A stretch of 39,392 bases of DNA from a bacterium (GTDB lineage: Bacteria > Planctomycetota > UBA1135 > GCA-002686595). Of this stretch, positions 15,209-34,316 are shown piece by piece. The translations under genes were made by a program, and so were the position numbers. The first letter of the stretch is position 1; every line of letters begins with the position of its first letter. The stretch is taken from the NCBI GenBank assembly GCA_030426785.1, contig JAUHXY010000005.1:1-39392 (forward strand). The letters are read 5' to 3'. A model generated the notes under the pieces. That model did not search any database, was not told where the DNA came from, and saw only the letters and a program-made list of their open reading frames with translations.

Positions 15209-16275
15209 GCCGTGCTTGGTTGGCCTACGAGGGTCGGCGGTGGCTGTGGAATCGCTGGCTTTGGTTCGGAGCGGCGCTAGCGATCGCCGTGGTGGCTTGG
15301 CCTCCTGCGGAGCAGGGGGTGCCGCACGCCACTCGACCCGAACGCGTCGCGCGCGGGGCCATGACCTTCGGCGTTTTGTGGTGGGGTTGGCTCGCCTGGG
15401 TCGGTTGCCACTTCGGAAGACGCTGGCTCACGGCGGAGGCGGCCTGGGTGTTGCCCACGGGACAAACGGCGCGTCGGGCCTGCCTCGTCGCCGGGCTCGC
15501 GAGCGCCGTCGCAACGGCGCTCGTGCTGCTGTTGGGTGTTCTGGGCGCGGCTTTCGTCGGTGGCGATGCTTGGCCCGCTTGGCGCGTGCACCAAACCGCG
15601 CCCCTGAACGCCGCTCCGGCGCTGGGTCCAGAGCAACGTTTGTTGGCACCTTGGCCGGAGGCTTGGCGCAACCGAAAGTGGAAAGCGGGCGACCAGCTCA
15701 GTTTGTGGGTGCACAGTACCGGGGGTGGCGCGCCCACCACGCAAGCGTCCTTTCTCGCAGGACCGGGATCGCTGCTGGAGTCGGGCCTTCCTGCAAGTCT
15801 GAGCCTTGAGGAGCGCATCGACGGCGCGCGTCGGCTCCAAACCACCGTCCCCGACACAGAACCGCCGACCCATTGGGCGGTCCTCAACCACGGCCCGGGC
15901 GAACTGGGATTGCTCGCTCGGCGAGGACTGACTTGGTTGCAACCCGAGTCCACCGGACGCTTCTTGACCAGTTTCGGCGCGCGCTTTTTCTGGGCGAGCG
16001 TTTGCATCGCAGCCGGTGCTCTGCTGCTCGGATCCTTTCTACGGCCGTGGTTGGCGTTTGCCTTGTTGGGCAGTTTGATCGTGGTTGCATGGCACGGGCC
16101 GCCCTGGGCCTCGGCCTACCTGGCACGGGACGCTGCTTTGTGGCGCTCCGGGTTAGGACCCGCGCCCTGGGAATGGGGACAGTCAGCCTTCACGTGGTTG
16201 GCAAGTTTGGCCGGCGTCCTCTCCATGCCTTGGCTCGTGCAGCGCTGCTTGGCGTCCCGAGGGGGTGCACCGTGA
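15205..16275 (+). CDS. Predicted ABC transporter membrane subunit with large extracytoplasmic insert
   Basis: ATGA overlap with the ATPase gene. Several hydrophobic helices flank a ~180-residue hydrophilic section (GGDAWPAWRVHQTAPLN...LLARRGLTWLQPE). Confidence 0.65.
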   Translation: MSRAWLAYEGRRWLWNRWLWFGAALAIAVVAWPPAEQGVPHATRPERVARGAMTFGVLWWGWLAWVGCHFGRRWLTAEAAWVLPTGQTARRACLVAGLASAVATALVLLLGVLGAAFVGGDAWPAWRVHQTAPLNAAPALGPEQRLLAPWPEAWRNRKWKAGDQLSLWVHSTGGGAPTTQASFLAGPGSLLESGLPASLSLEERIDGARRLQTTVPDTEPPTHWAVLNHGPGELGLLARRGLTWLQPESTGRFLTSFGARFFWASVCIAAGALLLGSFLRPWLAFALLGSLIVVAWHGPPWASAYLARDAALWRSGLGPAPWEWGQSAFTWLASLAGVLSMPWLVQRCLASRGGAP

Positions 16276-17826: not shown

Positions 17827-19905
17827 ATGACTGATCAAATCCTCCTCCTGGCGGCCATTTGTGCCGGCCTCGCCCTGATCTTTGCGGTCATTAAGTACCG
17901 CCAAATCATGTCCCGCGACGCGGGCACCCAGGAGATGCAGGACATCTCCAAACTGGTCCAACAAGGTGCTGCCGCCTTCTTGCGCGCGGAGTACATGTGG
18001 TTGACCGTATTCGTCGCGGGCGTGTTCGGCGTCATCTTCATGATCGAAGCCGATGGCTTGGGTCCGAAGACCGCCTACGCCTTCGTGGCAGGCGCCGCCG
18101 CATCGGCCATCGCCGGCTACTTCGGCATGCATACCGCCACCCGCGCGGCCGTGCGCACGACTCAGGCAGCCACCAAAGACTTGTCCAGCGCTCTCGACGT
18201 GGCCTTCTCTTCGGGAACGGTCATGGGCATGAGCGTGGTCGGCCTGGGCCTGTTGGGCGTCGCCATCTTCACGATGGTCTACGCCGTGGACGGCGTCATC
18301 AACGAGGCGGTTCTGCAGCAAGTGCTGGGCTTTAGCTTCGGTGCCTCCTCCATCGCGCTCTTCGCGCGCGTGGGTGGCGGCATCTTCACCAAGGCCGCCG
18401 ACGTGGGTGCCGACCTGGTGGGCAAGGTGGAAGCGGGTATCCCCGAGGACGACCCCCGCAACCCGGGCACCATCGCCGACAACGTGGGCGACAACGTTGG
18501 CGACGTGGCTGGCATGGGCGCGGACCTGTTCGAGTCCTACGTGGGTTCGCTCATCGCGGCCATGACCTTGGGCGCCTTCGCCTACCAGGGTCTCGACGGC
18601 CAAATGGGCATGATCATGCTGCCTCTCGCGGTCGCCGCGTTCGGCATCCTCGCCTCGGCCGTCGGCACGTTCTTCGTGAAGGCCACCGACGAACACCACC
18701 TGCACTCCGCCCTCTTCAAGGGCCTGGTGGTCGCCTCGGTCCTCGTGATCGGCGGCACGGCTGCGTTCGTGTTCACCGGCTTGCTCGATTTGCCCGAAAC
18801 CCTCAAAGCTGGCTACGAGGGCAACGCCTCGATGGCGCTCTTCGTGGCGGTCATCTCCGGTCTGATCGTTGGAGTCTTGATCGGTAAAGTCACCGAGTAC
18901 TACACCGCGATGGAAGCCAAGCCGGCCCAGTACATTGCCAAGCAATCGCAAACCGGCCCCGCGACCAACATCATCCACGGTCTGGCGACCGGCATGGAGT
19001 CGGTGGCCCTGCCCGTGATTTTGATCTGCGTCGCGATCTGGCTGTCCTTCTTTATGGCGGGCGTCTACGGCGTAGCCATCGCGGCGGTCGGCATGCTTTC
19101 GACCCTGGGCATCTCGCTCGGCGTGGATGCGTACGGCCCGGTGGCCGACAACGCGGGTGGCTTGGCCGAGATGGCGGAACTGCCCCCGGAAGTGCGCGAG
19201 CGTACCGACGCCCTCGACGCGGTGGGTAACACCACGGCGGCGATCGGAAAGGGTTTCGCAATCGGCTCGGCGGCCTTGACCGCCTTGGCCCTCTTTAGCG
19301 CCTTCACCGAAGCGGCCAACATTCGCATGCCCGAAGGAGAAACGCTCAGCCTGCAGATCTCCGATTCGCAGGTCATGATCGGCCTCTTGATCGGGGGTTT
19401 CTTGCCCTTCTTGTTCAGCGCCATGACGATGCGCGCCGTAGGTCGCGCGGCCAACCTGATGGTCGAGGAGATTCGCCGCCAGTTCCGCGAGATCCCCGGC
19501 ATTCTGGAAGGCACCGCGAAGCCGGATGCCGCGCGCTGCGTGGCCATTTCGACCAAGGGATCCCTGAAGCAAATGATCCTTCCCGGTGCGCTCGCCGTGG
19601 CCGTGCCGGTTTTGGTCGGCAAGTTCATGGGCGTCGAAACCCTGGGCGGTCTGCTCGGCGGTGCCCTCGTCACCGGCGTCATGATGGCCATCTTCATGGC
19701 CAACGCCGGCGGCGCTTGGGACAACGCGAAGAAGTACATCGAGAACGGCCACGAAGGCGGCAAGGGCTCGGAAGCTCACAAGGCTGCGGTCGTGGGCGAT
19801 ACGGTCGGCGACCCCTTCAAGGACACCTCGGGCCCCAGCCTCAATATCCTGGTCAAGTTGATGACCGTGGTGAGCCTGGTGTTCCTTCCTTGGTTCTTGG
19901 CCTAA
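17827..19905 (+). CDS. hppA: Membrane-bound ion-translocating pyrophosphatase, K+-dependent subtype
   Basis: [110 protein letters not shown]. Confidence 0.97.
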
Positions 19906-19962
19906 CGGCCTGGCCTTGGTTCTTGGCCTAACGGCCTGGCCTTGGTTCTTGGCCTAACGGCC
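19888..19962. repeat. Three tandem copies (26 + 26 + 23 bp) of CCTTGGTTCTTGGCCTAACGGCCTGG spanning the hppA stop codon
   Basis: Exact repeats at 19888-19913, 19914-19939 and 19940-19962. Each contains CCTTGGTTCTTGGCCTAA, i.e. PWFLA-stop. Confidence 0.97.
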
Positions 19963-31441: not shown

Positions 31442-31703
31442 AGGGGCTCCTGCGCTGCCGGGACGGGGCCCGGGCCCCCGAAATTAGTCCCTGAGCGCGA
31501 GCGGGGAAAGCACCGGACCCCGCCCGCAGAACAGAATTCGATCCACCGCCCCAGGAGCCCCTGGAGCAAGCTTGCATCCGCCCCCCCGCCTGCTATCCTC
31601 TGCGCCTTGTGACGGCCCATGGCCGTCCCCGAATCGCCCTTCCTTGCCTTGGGGCTGCGGCTTGGCCGCGCTGAGGTTGTCTACCGGGTGGTTTGGTGCG
31701 GTG

Positions 31704-31790
31704 GCCCGGGTGGCGGAATTGGTAGACGCGCGAGACTAAGGATCTCGTGGGGTAACACCCGTGCTGGTTCGATTCCAGTCCCGGGCACCA
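31704..31790 (+). tRNA. tRNA-Leu, anticodon AAG, CCA encoded
   Basis: GCCCGGG/CCCGGGC acceptor + ACCA; GGTAGAC D-loop; anticodon arm CGAGA-CTAAGGA-TCTCG (AAG at 34-36); long variable arm TGGGGTAACACCCG; T arm GCTGG-TTCGATT-CCAGT. Confidence 0.93.
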
Positions 31791-32035
31791 CTTTGGCGGG
31801 CTGACGGAAGCGTCGGTTGGCAGTGAACACGGCGATCAGCACGGGTGTCGTCTTTTATTGGCGAGCGCCTGACGGCGCTCGACACTGGCGTGCTGGTTCG
31901 ATTCCAGTCCCGGGCACCACTTTGGCGGGCTGACCGCGAGCGTCGGTTGGCAGTGTGAGCTGCAGTCAGCACGGGTGTTGTTGTTTTTTTAGCGAGCGCC
32001 TTACGGCGCTCGACATGGGCGTGCTGGCTTTGGCC
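31760..32035. repeat. Diverged tandem repeat (~129-131 bp period) that includes the tRNA-Leu 3' end; two full copies plus start of a third
   Basis: CGTGCTGGTTCGATTCCAGTCCCGGGCACCACTTTGGCGGGCTGAC at 31760 and 31889; CGTGCTGG again at 32020. Shared downstream blocks AGCGTCGGTTGGCAGTG, TCAGCACGGGTGT, CGAGCGCCT(G/T)ACGGCGCTCGACA. Confidence 0.95.
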
Positions 32036-32239
32036 AGGGAGTTTGGGTGTGGAGTTGCCCTGGTTAGCGTCGATTGGCAAGGGTGACTGGTTTGTTTGCC
32101 TTGTTGTAGCTCTGGTTTGTTGAGGAGCCTGTTGGGTTGTCCTTTGGACCCAGGTTGCTGGGTGGACTGGGGTCTAGGGAGTGCTCCGGGCGGTGCTCGA
32201 TACCCGCTTGTGGCTTGAGTTTGAGGGCCCCTAGGGTTT

Positions 32240-32266
32240 GGGGTTATTGGGGGGTGGGGAGGGGGG
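32240..32266 (+). other. G-quadruplex-forming motif overlapping the 3' end of the minus-strand 690-aa gene
   Basis: GGGGTTATTGGGGGGTGGGGAGGGGGG: four G-tracts with loops of 5, 1 and 1 nt. Confidence 0.75.
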
Positions 32267-34316
32267 TGTGGGCGCGGAGGGCCAGTTTGAAGTGTTTGGG
32301 GTCCAGGCGGAGTTGGAGCAGGACGTGGTCCATGGATTCCATGTAGGTGATCTCGCGGTCGCGCTTGGCCATGAGTTTGGGGGTGTTGACGACTCGGTAT
32401 TCGTCGGCCCATTCCGTTAAGCGTTGGTCGACGATGGCGCGCAAGCGGTCGACCTCGGCGGTGGAGAGTTGGTTGATTGGGCGGCCGCCGAATTGTTCGT
32501 TGCGCACCTCGCGTTCGACGATTGGGCGCTGTTGGGCCCAATTGATGGAGTTGAGCACGTTGTCCTCCGCCCACTGTTTGGCGATTTTGCGGAGCGTGGG
32601 CGCGGCTTTTTTGGGGTTGAACCAGACGATCAGGTTGGCCTTGTCGAGCGCTCCTTCCACTTGGCGCCGGAAAGAGGGCAGCTCCGACAAGCGCTGGTAG
32701 CCGCGGTCACCACCTTGGAAGTAGGTGCGGCGCAGCGCCTCGAACATGCGCTCGTGGTTCGTGATCCAGAAGTGGTTCTCGTCCGTGAGCATGGTCGCCA
32801 TCATGCCCGTGCCGGGGATCAACGGGGACCAAAACTCGCGGGTTGCGAAGCCACCCGAGTCGTAGATGTAGTAGCCGGTGTCGTTGGGATTGGCGGAGTC
32901 GTAGCCCTTCAAGCCGAACTTTTCGGGGTTGCGGCCCACCATGTCGCGGATGTCGTCGAGCTTTTTGACCGAGTCGGCGCCCTGCGTCCAGGTGACCAGG
33001 GTCATGGCGAACACCGGCATGCCGTCGGTTTCCGCTTGGAATTCCTGCCCGTCTTTGCCCCGCGCGATGACGGGGCCGTAATCGTTTTCGCGCACGATCA
33101 AGGCCATGCGGTTGCGCAGAGAAGATCCCAAAGCGTCGAGCAGGTCATCCAGGCTCTTGAAGTGACCGGTGCTCTTGACGGCGTCCTCGATGTTCGAACG
33201 CATCGCTGGCTCGACCGAGTCGAAGACCTGAGCCAACAGGTCGGCGATCGGGCCGTGCATGTACGCGAACAGGACGCAGTCGGCGGGTGCCATGCGCGCC
33301 GCCGTGCGCAGCATTTGATCGCGCTCGAAGCCGTCGACTCGATAGAGCCGGGACTGGAAGGGGGTCACGCTCTCGGAAGAGAACGTGCCCGACAGATCGA
33401 TCTGCACGCCGTGATCGAAGCGCACCAAGCCGTGCACGTCCTTGCAGGAAGGGGCCTGGATCAAGCGTCCCAAGAAGGCTTGCGAAAAGCGATCGCTCTT
33501 GGTGTTGGGCCAGGGCCCCCCCTTGCCGAGGGACTGAAAGGTCTTGCCCACGTCGAGCAACACCTGCAAGCCGCTCTCCCCCACCTTGTCCTCCACGCGC
33601 ATGATTTGATCGATGTAGCCCGCGCTCAATGCCAGGGAGTCCTTGCCCCCTACCGCCTTCAGCGCCGGCCCCCGCGCCACCAAATCCTTGTGGTTGCCCA
33701 CCACGAGCACGTCTTGCACGCGCGTAATGAAGAGCGGCTTCTTCAATTGCCCGCCCGTCAGTCCGTAAACCCCGTCTTGGCTTTCGACGACGAAATTCTG
33801 GCCCGAAAAGCGGCGTAACAGTTTGGGGTAGCGCAGGACGGCCGCTGCCAGCTTTCCCGGCCAGCCCACACGACCGCAAATCATCCATTGCGCGTTGCCG
33901 AGGCCCTGACCGGCGAAGTTCCCGGCGATCGCGACCTCTTCGCCGCCGAAGATATCCAAGGGGCCGAGGCCGAGCGGCAATTGGCGCGTTTGCTCGCGGA
34001 TGCGTTCGACCAGCCCGTCCAGATCGTTCTTTTGGGTCCAAGCCTCAAACTCCGGGGAACCCGACCAGACCCGCCATCCCTTCGTATCTTCGATCTGGTC
34101 CCAGGCCGCCAAGACCGGGAATTCGCCGAAGTCAGCGGCCAAGTTTTCCTTCGCCAGGAAGAAATCCACCTGTCGCGGAATCAAACCGGCGACCGCATGG
34201 GGCCACTTGGACTCGAAGGGTTTGAAGAGAAAGGTCGAGAACGCGAAGTACCCGAGGAACAGGAGCACGGCGAGCGAGATCGCCGAAATCTTGAGGATGC
34301 GTTTCTTGCGGCTCAT
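32244..34316 (-). CDS. Large single-pass membrane-anchored protein of unknown function
   Basis: MSRKKRILKISAISLAVLLFLGYFAFSTFLF anchor followed by ~650-aa soluble-looking region; long clean ORF. Confidence 0.75.
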   Translation of the reverse strand: MSRKKRILKISAISLAVLLFLGYFAFSTFLFKPFESKWPHAVAGLIPRQVDFFLAKENLAADFGEFPVLAAWDQIEDTKGWRVWSGSPEFEAWTQKNDLDGLVERIREQTRQLPLGLGPLDIFGGEEVAIAGNFAGQGLGNAQWMICGRVGWPGKLAAAVLRYPKLLRRFSGQNFVVESQDGVYGLTGGQLKKPLFITRVQDVLVVGNHKDLVARGPALKAVGGKDSLALSAGYIDQIMRVEDKVGESGLQVLLDVGKTFQSLGKGGPWPNTKSDRFSQAFLGRLIQAPSCKDVHGLVRFDHGVQIDLSGTFSSESVTPFQSRLYRVDGFERDQMLRTAARMAPADCVLFAYMHGPIADLLAQVFDSVEPAMRSNIEDAVKSTGHFKSLDDLLDALGSSLRNRMALIVRENDYGPVIARGKDGQEFQAETDGMPVFAMTLVTWTQGADSVKKLDDIRDMVGRNPEKFGLKGYDSANPNDTGYYIYDSGGFATREFWSPLIPGTGMMATMLTDENHFWITNHERMFEALRRTYFQGGDRGYQRLSELPSFRRQVEGALDKANLIVWFNPKKAAPTLRKIAKQWAEDNVLNSINWAQQRPIVEREVRNEQFGGRPINQLSTAEVDRLRAIVDQRLTEWADEYRVVNTPKLMAKRDREITYMESMDHVLLQLRLDPKHFKLALRAHTPLPTPQ

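Follow-up and report, generated by a model that had tools for sequence, protein, structure and literature searches.

The 3′ end of a tRNA gene is known to recur downstream of its own gene in Escherichia coli K-12, where a 19-nt tail of tRNA-Tyr is found at +175, +472, +650, and +828 relative to the tyrT end and the tail of tyrV itself lies at +294, all of them with 0 mismatches. The full units that follow tyrV are ~95% alike from each one to the next, have a period of 178 bp, and end in a partial copy; in the E. coli record, this locus carries annotations for RttR, a small RNA, and for the gene tpr. The 178-bp unit also contains GGGGAAGGAT, a 10-nt complement of the tRNA-Tyr tail. To our knowledge, the purpose of the tyrT arrays is still unclear. 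Another E. coli tRNA transcript gives rise to 3′ETS-leuZ, a trailer-derived sponge whose function has been reported from experiments (PMC8166272).

Here, we describe a tRNA tail array from the metagenome bin of an uncultured planctomycete (4.0 Mb in 366 contigs, completeness of 85%), whose nearest relatives found, judged by the flanking phosphofructokinase, are two Planctomycetota bins. Within the bin, 20 contig stretches were sampled. The array-bearing contig, C45, is the entire window, i.e., the whole stretch of 39,392 nucleotides that was analyzed, and the only tRNA gene on it is the tRNA-Leu(AAG) gene that precedes the array. We regard a lineage-specific local tandem duplication at the 3′ end of this gene as the best account of the array and consider it likely to be the right one. 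The gene and the repeats are as follows.

31704 to 31790, + strand: tRNA-Leu(AAG) gene including the CCA, source of the repeated tail (ARAGORN; Rfam RF00005, 54.6 bits).
31760 to 31888, + strand: unit 1, consisting of the tRNA T arm, acceptor 3′ strand, and CCA (31760 to 31790) and then a 98-nt spacer (direct repeats, 113 of 131 columns identical to unit 2).
31889 to 32019, + strand: unit 2, consisting of an exact copy of the tRNA tail (31889 to 31919) and then a 100-nt spacer (direct repeats, tail 100% identical).
32020 to 32086, + strand: probable decayed third copy, in register, with CGTGCTGG at 32020 and AGCGTCGATTGGCA from 32066 (in-register local alignment, equaled by 19 to 25 of 3,000 shuffles).

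An earlier note on this DNA had described diverged tandem units of ~130 bp that begin with the tRNA T arm at 31760 and 31889, and this description holds: units 1 and 2 are 129 and 131 nt long, and their global alignment has 113 identical columns out of 131. Its view that the array is not a simple assembly artifact is likewise upheld by the 18 columns at which the copies differ. Misassembly, for which the 366 contigs and 85% completeness of the bin could be cited, is extremely improbable in the face of this divergence and of the junction between ACACTGG and CGTGCTGGTTCG, where identity to the distal edge is limited to 8 bp, apparently too short a stretch for a k-mer misjoin. All differences between the two units are confined to the last 85 columns, while the first 46 bases, which include the T arm, the acceptor 3′ strand, the CCA, and 15 nt more, are the same in both (repeat finder). 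If the differing columns were spread at random, finding 0 of 18 in the first 46 would have a P value of 0.0002, with one gap for which the alignment allows a place on the border of the identical block or immediately within it; such a distribution is what homogenization or constraint predicts. The substitutions between the units are clustered, which weakens point-mutation statistics in either direction. The spacers are also homologous, with 83% identity over positions 1 to 94 (BLAST). The + strand open reading frames that start within the units are short, 21 to 43 amino acids.

The third copy had been placed at 32020 and limited to its first 8 bp. The start was correct, but the copy seems to go on past that limit: in local alignment, the segment AGCGTCGATTGGCA...GTGA (32066 to 32086) falls opposite AGCGTCGGTTGGCA...GTGA of the units and keeps their register, with a score that was matched by 25 of 3,000 dinucleotide-preserving shuffles for unit 1 and by 19 of 3,000 for unit 2 (about 0.6 to 0.8%). 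Because so few shuffles align as well in register, the sequence from 32020 to about 32086 or beyond is probably a decayed third copy.

The tRNA-Leu gene is flanked by the gene for 6-phosphofructokinase and by a convergent gene, an order that is found in many relatives. The distance from the CCA to the stop codon of the convergent gene is 453 bp here and mostly 1 to 130 bp in the relatives, with a few values of up to 630 bp; this comparison covers the relatives in which the convergent gene was located, and two negative values in it are a product of the automatic stop search. Within the same genus, genome G001 has a gap of 22 bp and G002 one of 116 bp; in G003, no convergent gene was located. 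As the gap is wider than in most relatives and the order of the flanking genes is kept, the array has grown locally in an otherwise unbroken gene neighborhood, with no break in synteny. In contig C78 of G002 (locus L153), scattered single Ns directly follow the CCA of tRNA-Leu, as if reads disagreed, so that the region is possibly variable or repeated in that species too. Two further family loci carry unrelated tandem repeats downstream of the orthologous tRNA, one with a short unit containing CACGCCTGACGGCG (L009) and the other with a longer unit with GGGCGAATCGCTCCTGGTGG (L004). The window itself has a perfect 26-bp tandem repeat at 19888 to 19962 (2.9 copies of CCTTGGTTCTTGGCCTAACGGCCTGG, with a short palindrome inside). 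The anticodon, at 31738 to 31740, is AAG, which most of the family loci that were read (L003 to L026) share; some of them have GAG. With AAG, the wobble position would have to carry inosine; leucine tRNAs of this type are, as far as we know, uncommon among bacteria.

The same neighborhood bears on the proposal of the earlier note that the repeats are scars of repeated site-specific insertion at the tRNA 3′ end. The att cores in tRNA genes typically have the size and place of the identical block, which spans the T arm, the CCA, and a further 15 nt, and the 46 bp would then represent such a core after two integrations and an internal deletion. However, homologous spacers between the att-like blocks would require that one and the same 130-bp element be present twice, and synteny across the site is intact in the relatives. 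A search for the phage integrase family (PF00589) found two such genes in the genome, confined to contigs C199 and C233, and none on the array-bearing contig, in line with the earlier remark that no integrase is visible. The spacer had no match in phages or plasmids (BLAST), and two exact patterns had none in viral contigs. Given the intact locus, the homologous spacers, and the lack of a phage-type integrase on the contig, we consider repeated integration very unlikely.

Searches that allowed up to 3 mismatches recovered the tRNA tail from 74 of 81 family genomes, once in 73 of them and twice only in this one. At the level of individual loci, 29 family tRNA-Leu loci were taken and 28 placed; none of the 28 has a second tail within the range searched, which was 1.4 kb or up to the end of the stretch, a few stretches being short. 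Among family genomes with a recognizable tail, the array is thus private to this genome. BLAST searches with the spacer over the family returned only fragments of ~20 nt, nearly all of them from the hairpin, and a covariance model of the spacer produced two marginal matches in the 81 genomes, with E values of about 0.007 to 0.009 per genome, which is about what chance would give. Rfam searches with gathering and relaxed thresholds returned the tRNA as the only significant match, with no match to the RtT family in cmscan at either gathering or E-value thresholds. A search of the available literature on tRNA tail repeats found nothing relevant. None of the other tRNAs scanned in the same genome is followed by a copy of its tail; the exception among them is two similar serine tRNA genes, both complete, that lie next to each other. 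The earlier note had suggested looking for the unit in the host genome and relatives with a covariance model and for similar arrays at other tRNA genes of the genome, and had held that a lack of recurrence, together with no compensatory changes in relatives and no transcript past the mature tRNA, would favor a neutral local duplication. Neither search turned up a recurrence beyond chance, which by that reasoning favors local duplication.

Two strong hairpins are found in each unit.

31799 to 31818, + strand: hairpin GGCUGAC/GUCGGUU of unit 1 (folding).
31928 to 31948, + strand: hairpin GGCUGAC/GUCGGUU of unit 2, with a different loop (sequence; local fold with flanks, −12.1 kcal/mol).
31862 to 31881, + strand: hairpin with an 8-bp stem and a UGAC loop, CGAGCGCC-TGAC-GGCGCTCG, of unit 1 (sequence, folding).
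31993 to 32012, + strand: hairpin with the same stem and a UUAC loop, CGAGCGCC-TTAC-GGCGCTCG, of unit 2 (sequence, local folding).

As claimed previously, the first stem is kept between the copies while its loop differs, and the two versions of the second hairpin differ in the loop only; every arm base of both hairpins is unchanged from unit 1 to unit 2. When the changes in unit 2 are mapped on the centroid structure of unit 1, they affect none of the 36 paired positions and 16 of the 62 unpaired ones (P = 0.0003), a contrast that is weaker on the full minimum free energy (MFE) structure (P = 0.03) and overlaps with the 46-base statistics, as the first hairpin lies partly inside the identical block. 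No pair in the two strong hairpins shows a compensatory change between units 1 and 2, and in the consensus fold both sides have changed in 1 of 25 pairs, within a third, weak helix. Since no arm pair of the two hairpins has changed, the preservation of the arms beyond chance is conservation and not covariation. The idea of a structure-preserving divergence is therefore upheld for the two hairpins but not for the whole unit, as the MFE folds of units 1 and 2 differ. Outside the array, the hairpin pattern has no site in the genome with fewer than 2 mismatches; the exact stem pattern occurs in two palindromes, one on contig C118 and the other at 15500 to 15523 of the window, where a 10-bp stem includes the CGAGCGCC/GGCGCTCG stem of the array hairpins. 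A dispersed intergenic repeat of the REP or MITE type was also considered and rejected: it requires multiple copies in the genome, and the array site was the only one found.

The earlier note did not mention that the unit contains a complement of its own tRNA.

31837 to 31848, + strand: CAGCACGGGTGT, a 12-nt exact reverse complement of tRNA variable/T-arm bases 31755 to 31766 (repeat search, shuffles).

Its counterpart in unit 2 is a 13-nt complement at 31967 to 31979, and a 12-nt complement was reached in 0 of 500 shuffles of the single-unit region. These bases overlap with GCACGGGTGTCG (31839), which, if the units were degenerate tandem copies of the whole tRNA gene, would represent what is left of a tRNA 5′ end, opposite the tail of unit 2. 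There is a weak covariance match to tRNA-Sec at 31839 to 31915, and, by eye, 6 of the 7 bases of GCACGGG could pair with the copied CCCGGGC. However, at 18.7 bits the match falls far short of the gathering score (47), folding of the 81-nt segment does not yield that acceptor stem, the same bases better match the reverse complement of the tRNA variable and T arms (12 to 13 exact), and the second tail is found in no other family genome, which makes this interpretation highly improbable. The complement also enters into an interpretation of the array as an independent second rtT-type locus, in which the amplified tail and trailer would make up a structured RNA whose conserved 12-nt antisense to the variable/T arm could influence the folding, processing, or termination of the tRNA; we consider it unlikely.

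Downstream of the units, the DNA has a marked G+T excess.

32028 to 32243, + strand: strongly G+T-rich (72%) stretch from the array to the convergent gene (composition).

This stretch lies within the most G+T-rich part of the window, and the skew continues into the convergent gene, over its 3′ part. Over the 450 bp that follow the tRNA, the G+T fraction is 0.662, the top value among the 27 family loci measured; a similar excess is seen behind other tRNAs of the same genome, including those for Ala-GGC, Leu-TAG, Met, Lys, and Ser (up to 0.68 over 450 bp in loci L032 to L062). Strand-asymmetric mutation behind weakly terminated tRNA transcripts would explain such an excess, and its presence downstream of tRNA-Leu hints at read-through transcription. 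A scan for intrinsic terminators detected no terminator-like sites in 31500 to 32350.

If the array is transcribed well beyond the CCA, as the skew suggests, it could encode a regulatory RNA of the rtT or 3′ETS kind, with the spacer hairpins freed by processing of the precursor to act as a small RNA or a sponge and the repeated tRNA tail providing repeated processing sites. The hairpin arms, which are the same in both copies with different loops that both fit C(UNAC)G, and the perfect tail copies are in keeping with such an RNA, as are the overlap of the same layout in E. coli with the annotated noncoding RNA rttR and the precedent of 3′ETS-leuZ as a trailer-derived sponge (PMC8166272). On the other side, the array is found in no relative examined, the MFE folds of the units are unlike each other, and the RtT model of Rfam is unmatched; a regulatory RNA is, in our view, rather unlikely. 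The similar suggestion in the earlier note, an undescribed tRNA-linked repeat RNA, fares in the same mixed way: it is compatible with the arm conservation, the G+T skew, and the tyrT parallel, but the unit does not recur and its layout is already known from E. coli tyrT/tyrV.

Local tandem duplication is favored by the homologous spacers, the in-register third copy, the single tails in relatives, and the preserved synteny. In this scenario, at least one event of slippage or unequal exchange, and probably two in view of the decayed distal copy, would have duplicated the 3′-terminal third of the tRNA-Leu(AAG) gene plus ~100 bp of its trailer. The first, intact gene would still make the tRNA, and the copies in the 3′ trailer would presumably be transcribed by read-through and then trimmed. 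The identical 46 bp would most likely reflect homogenization with the tRNA by gene conversion or a recent exchange, and selection for a trailer that is compact and stable may have kept the hairpin arms unchanged. Two observations speak against a purely neutral duplicate, namely, that the hairpin arms are more conserved than predicted and that the 12-nt antisense of the tRNA is retained in both copies. The G+T excess is compatible with transcription of the array region, which may have some function.

The array has the layout already known from E. coli tyrT/tyrV and has arisen independently, by convergence. Judging by its sequence, it is tyrT-like in anatomy and not a member of the rtT family. 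In both cases, the tRNA 3′ end is repeated downstream with spacers of roughly 100 to 160 nt, the tails are perfect while the spacers drift, the final copy is partial, and the unit holds a short complement of its own tRNA. The two differ in the tRNA (Leu versus Tyr), the phylum, the length of the unit (129/131 versus 178), and the spacers, which are unrelated; in addition, the planctomycete array has no tandem second tRNA gene. An independent array of tail plus trailer in another phylum indicates that this layout can arise convergently, and such arrays merit a systematic search, with the question of whether mutation (slippage at a strongly transcribed gene) or function gives rise to them. The array resembles attL and attR of phages and genomic islands at tRNA 3′ ends in that such an end recurs as a short direct repeat; it differs from them in its homologous spacers and in having neither an element nor, on the contig, a phage-type integrase. 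With 3′ETS-leuZ it shares an origin in the trailer of a leucine tRNA transcript (PMC8166272), although the latter is a single, unrepeated trailer of 53 nt.
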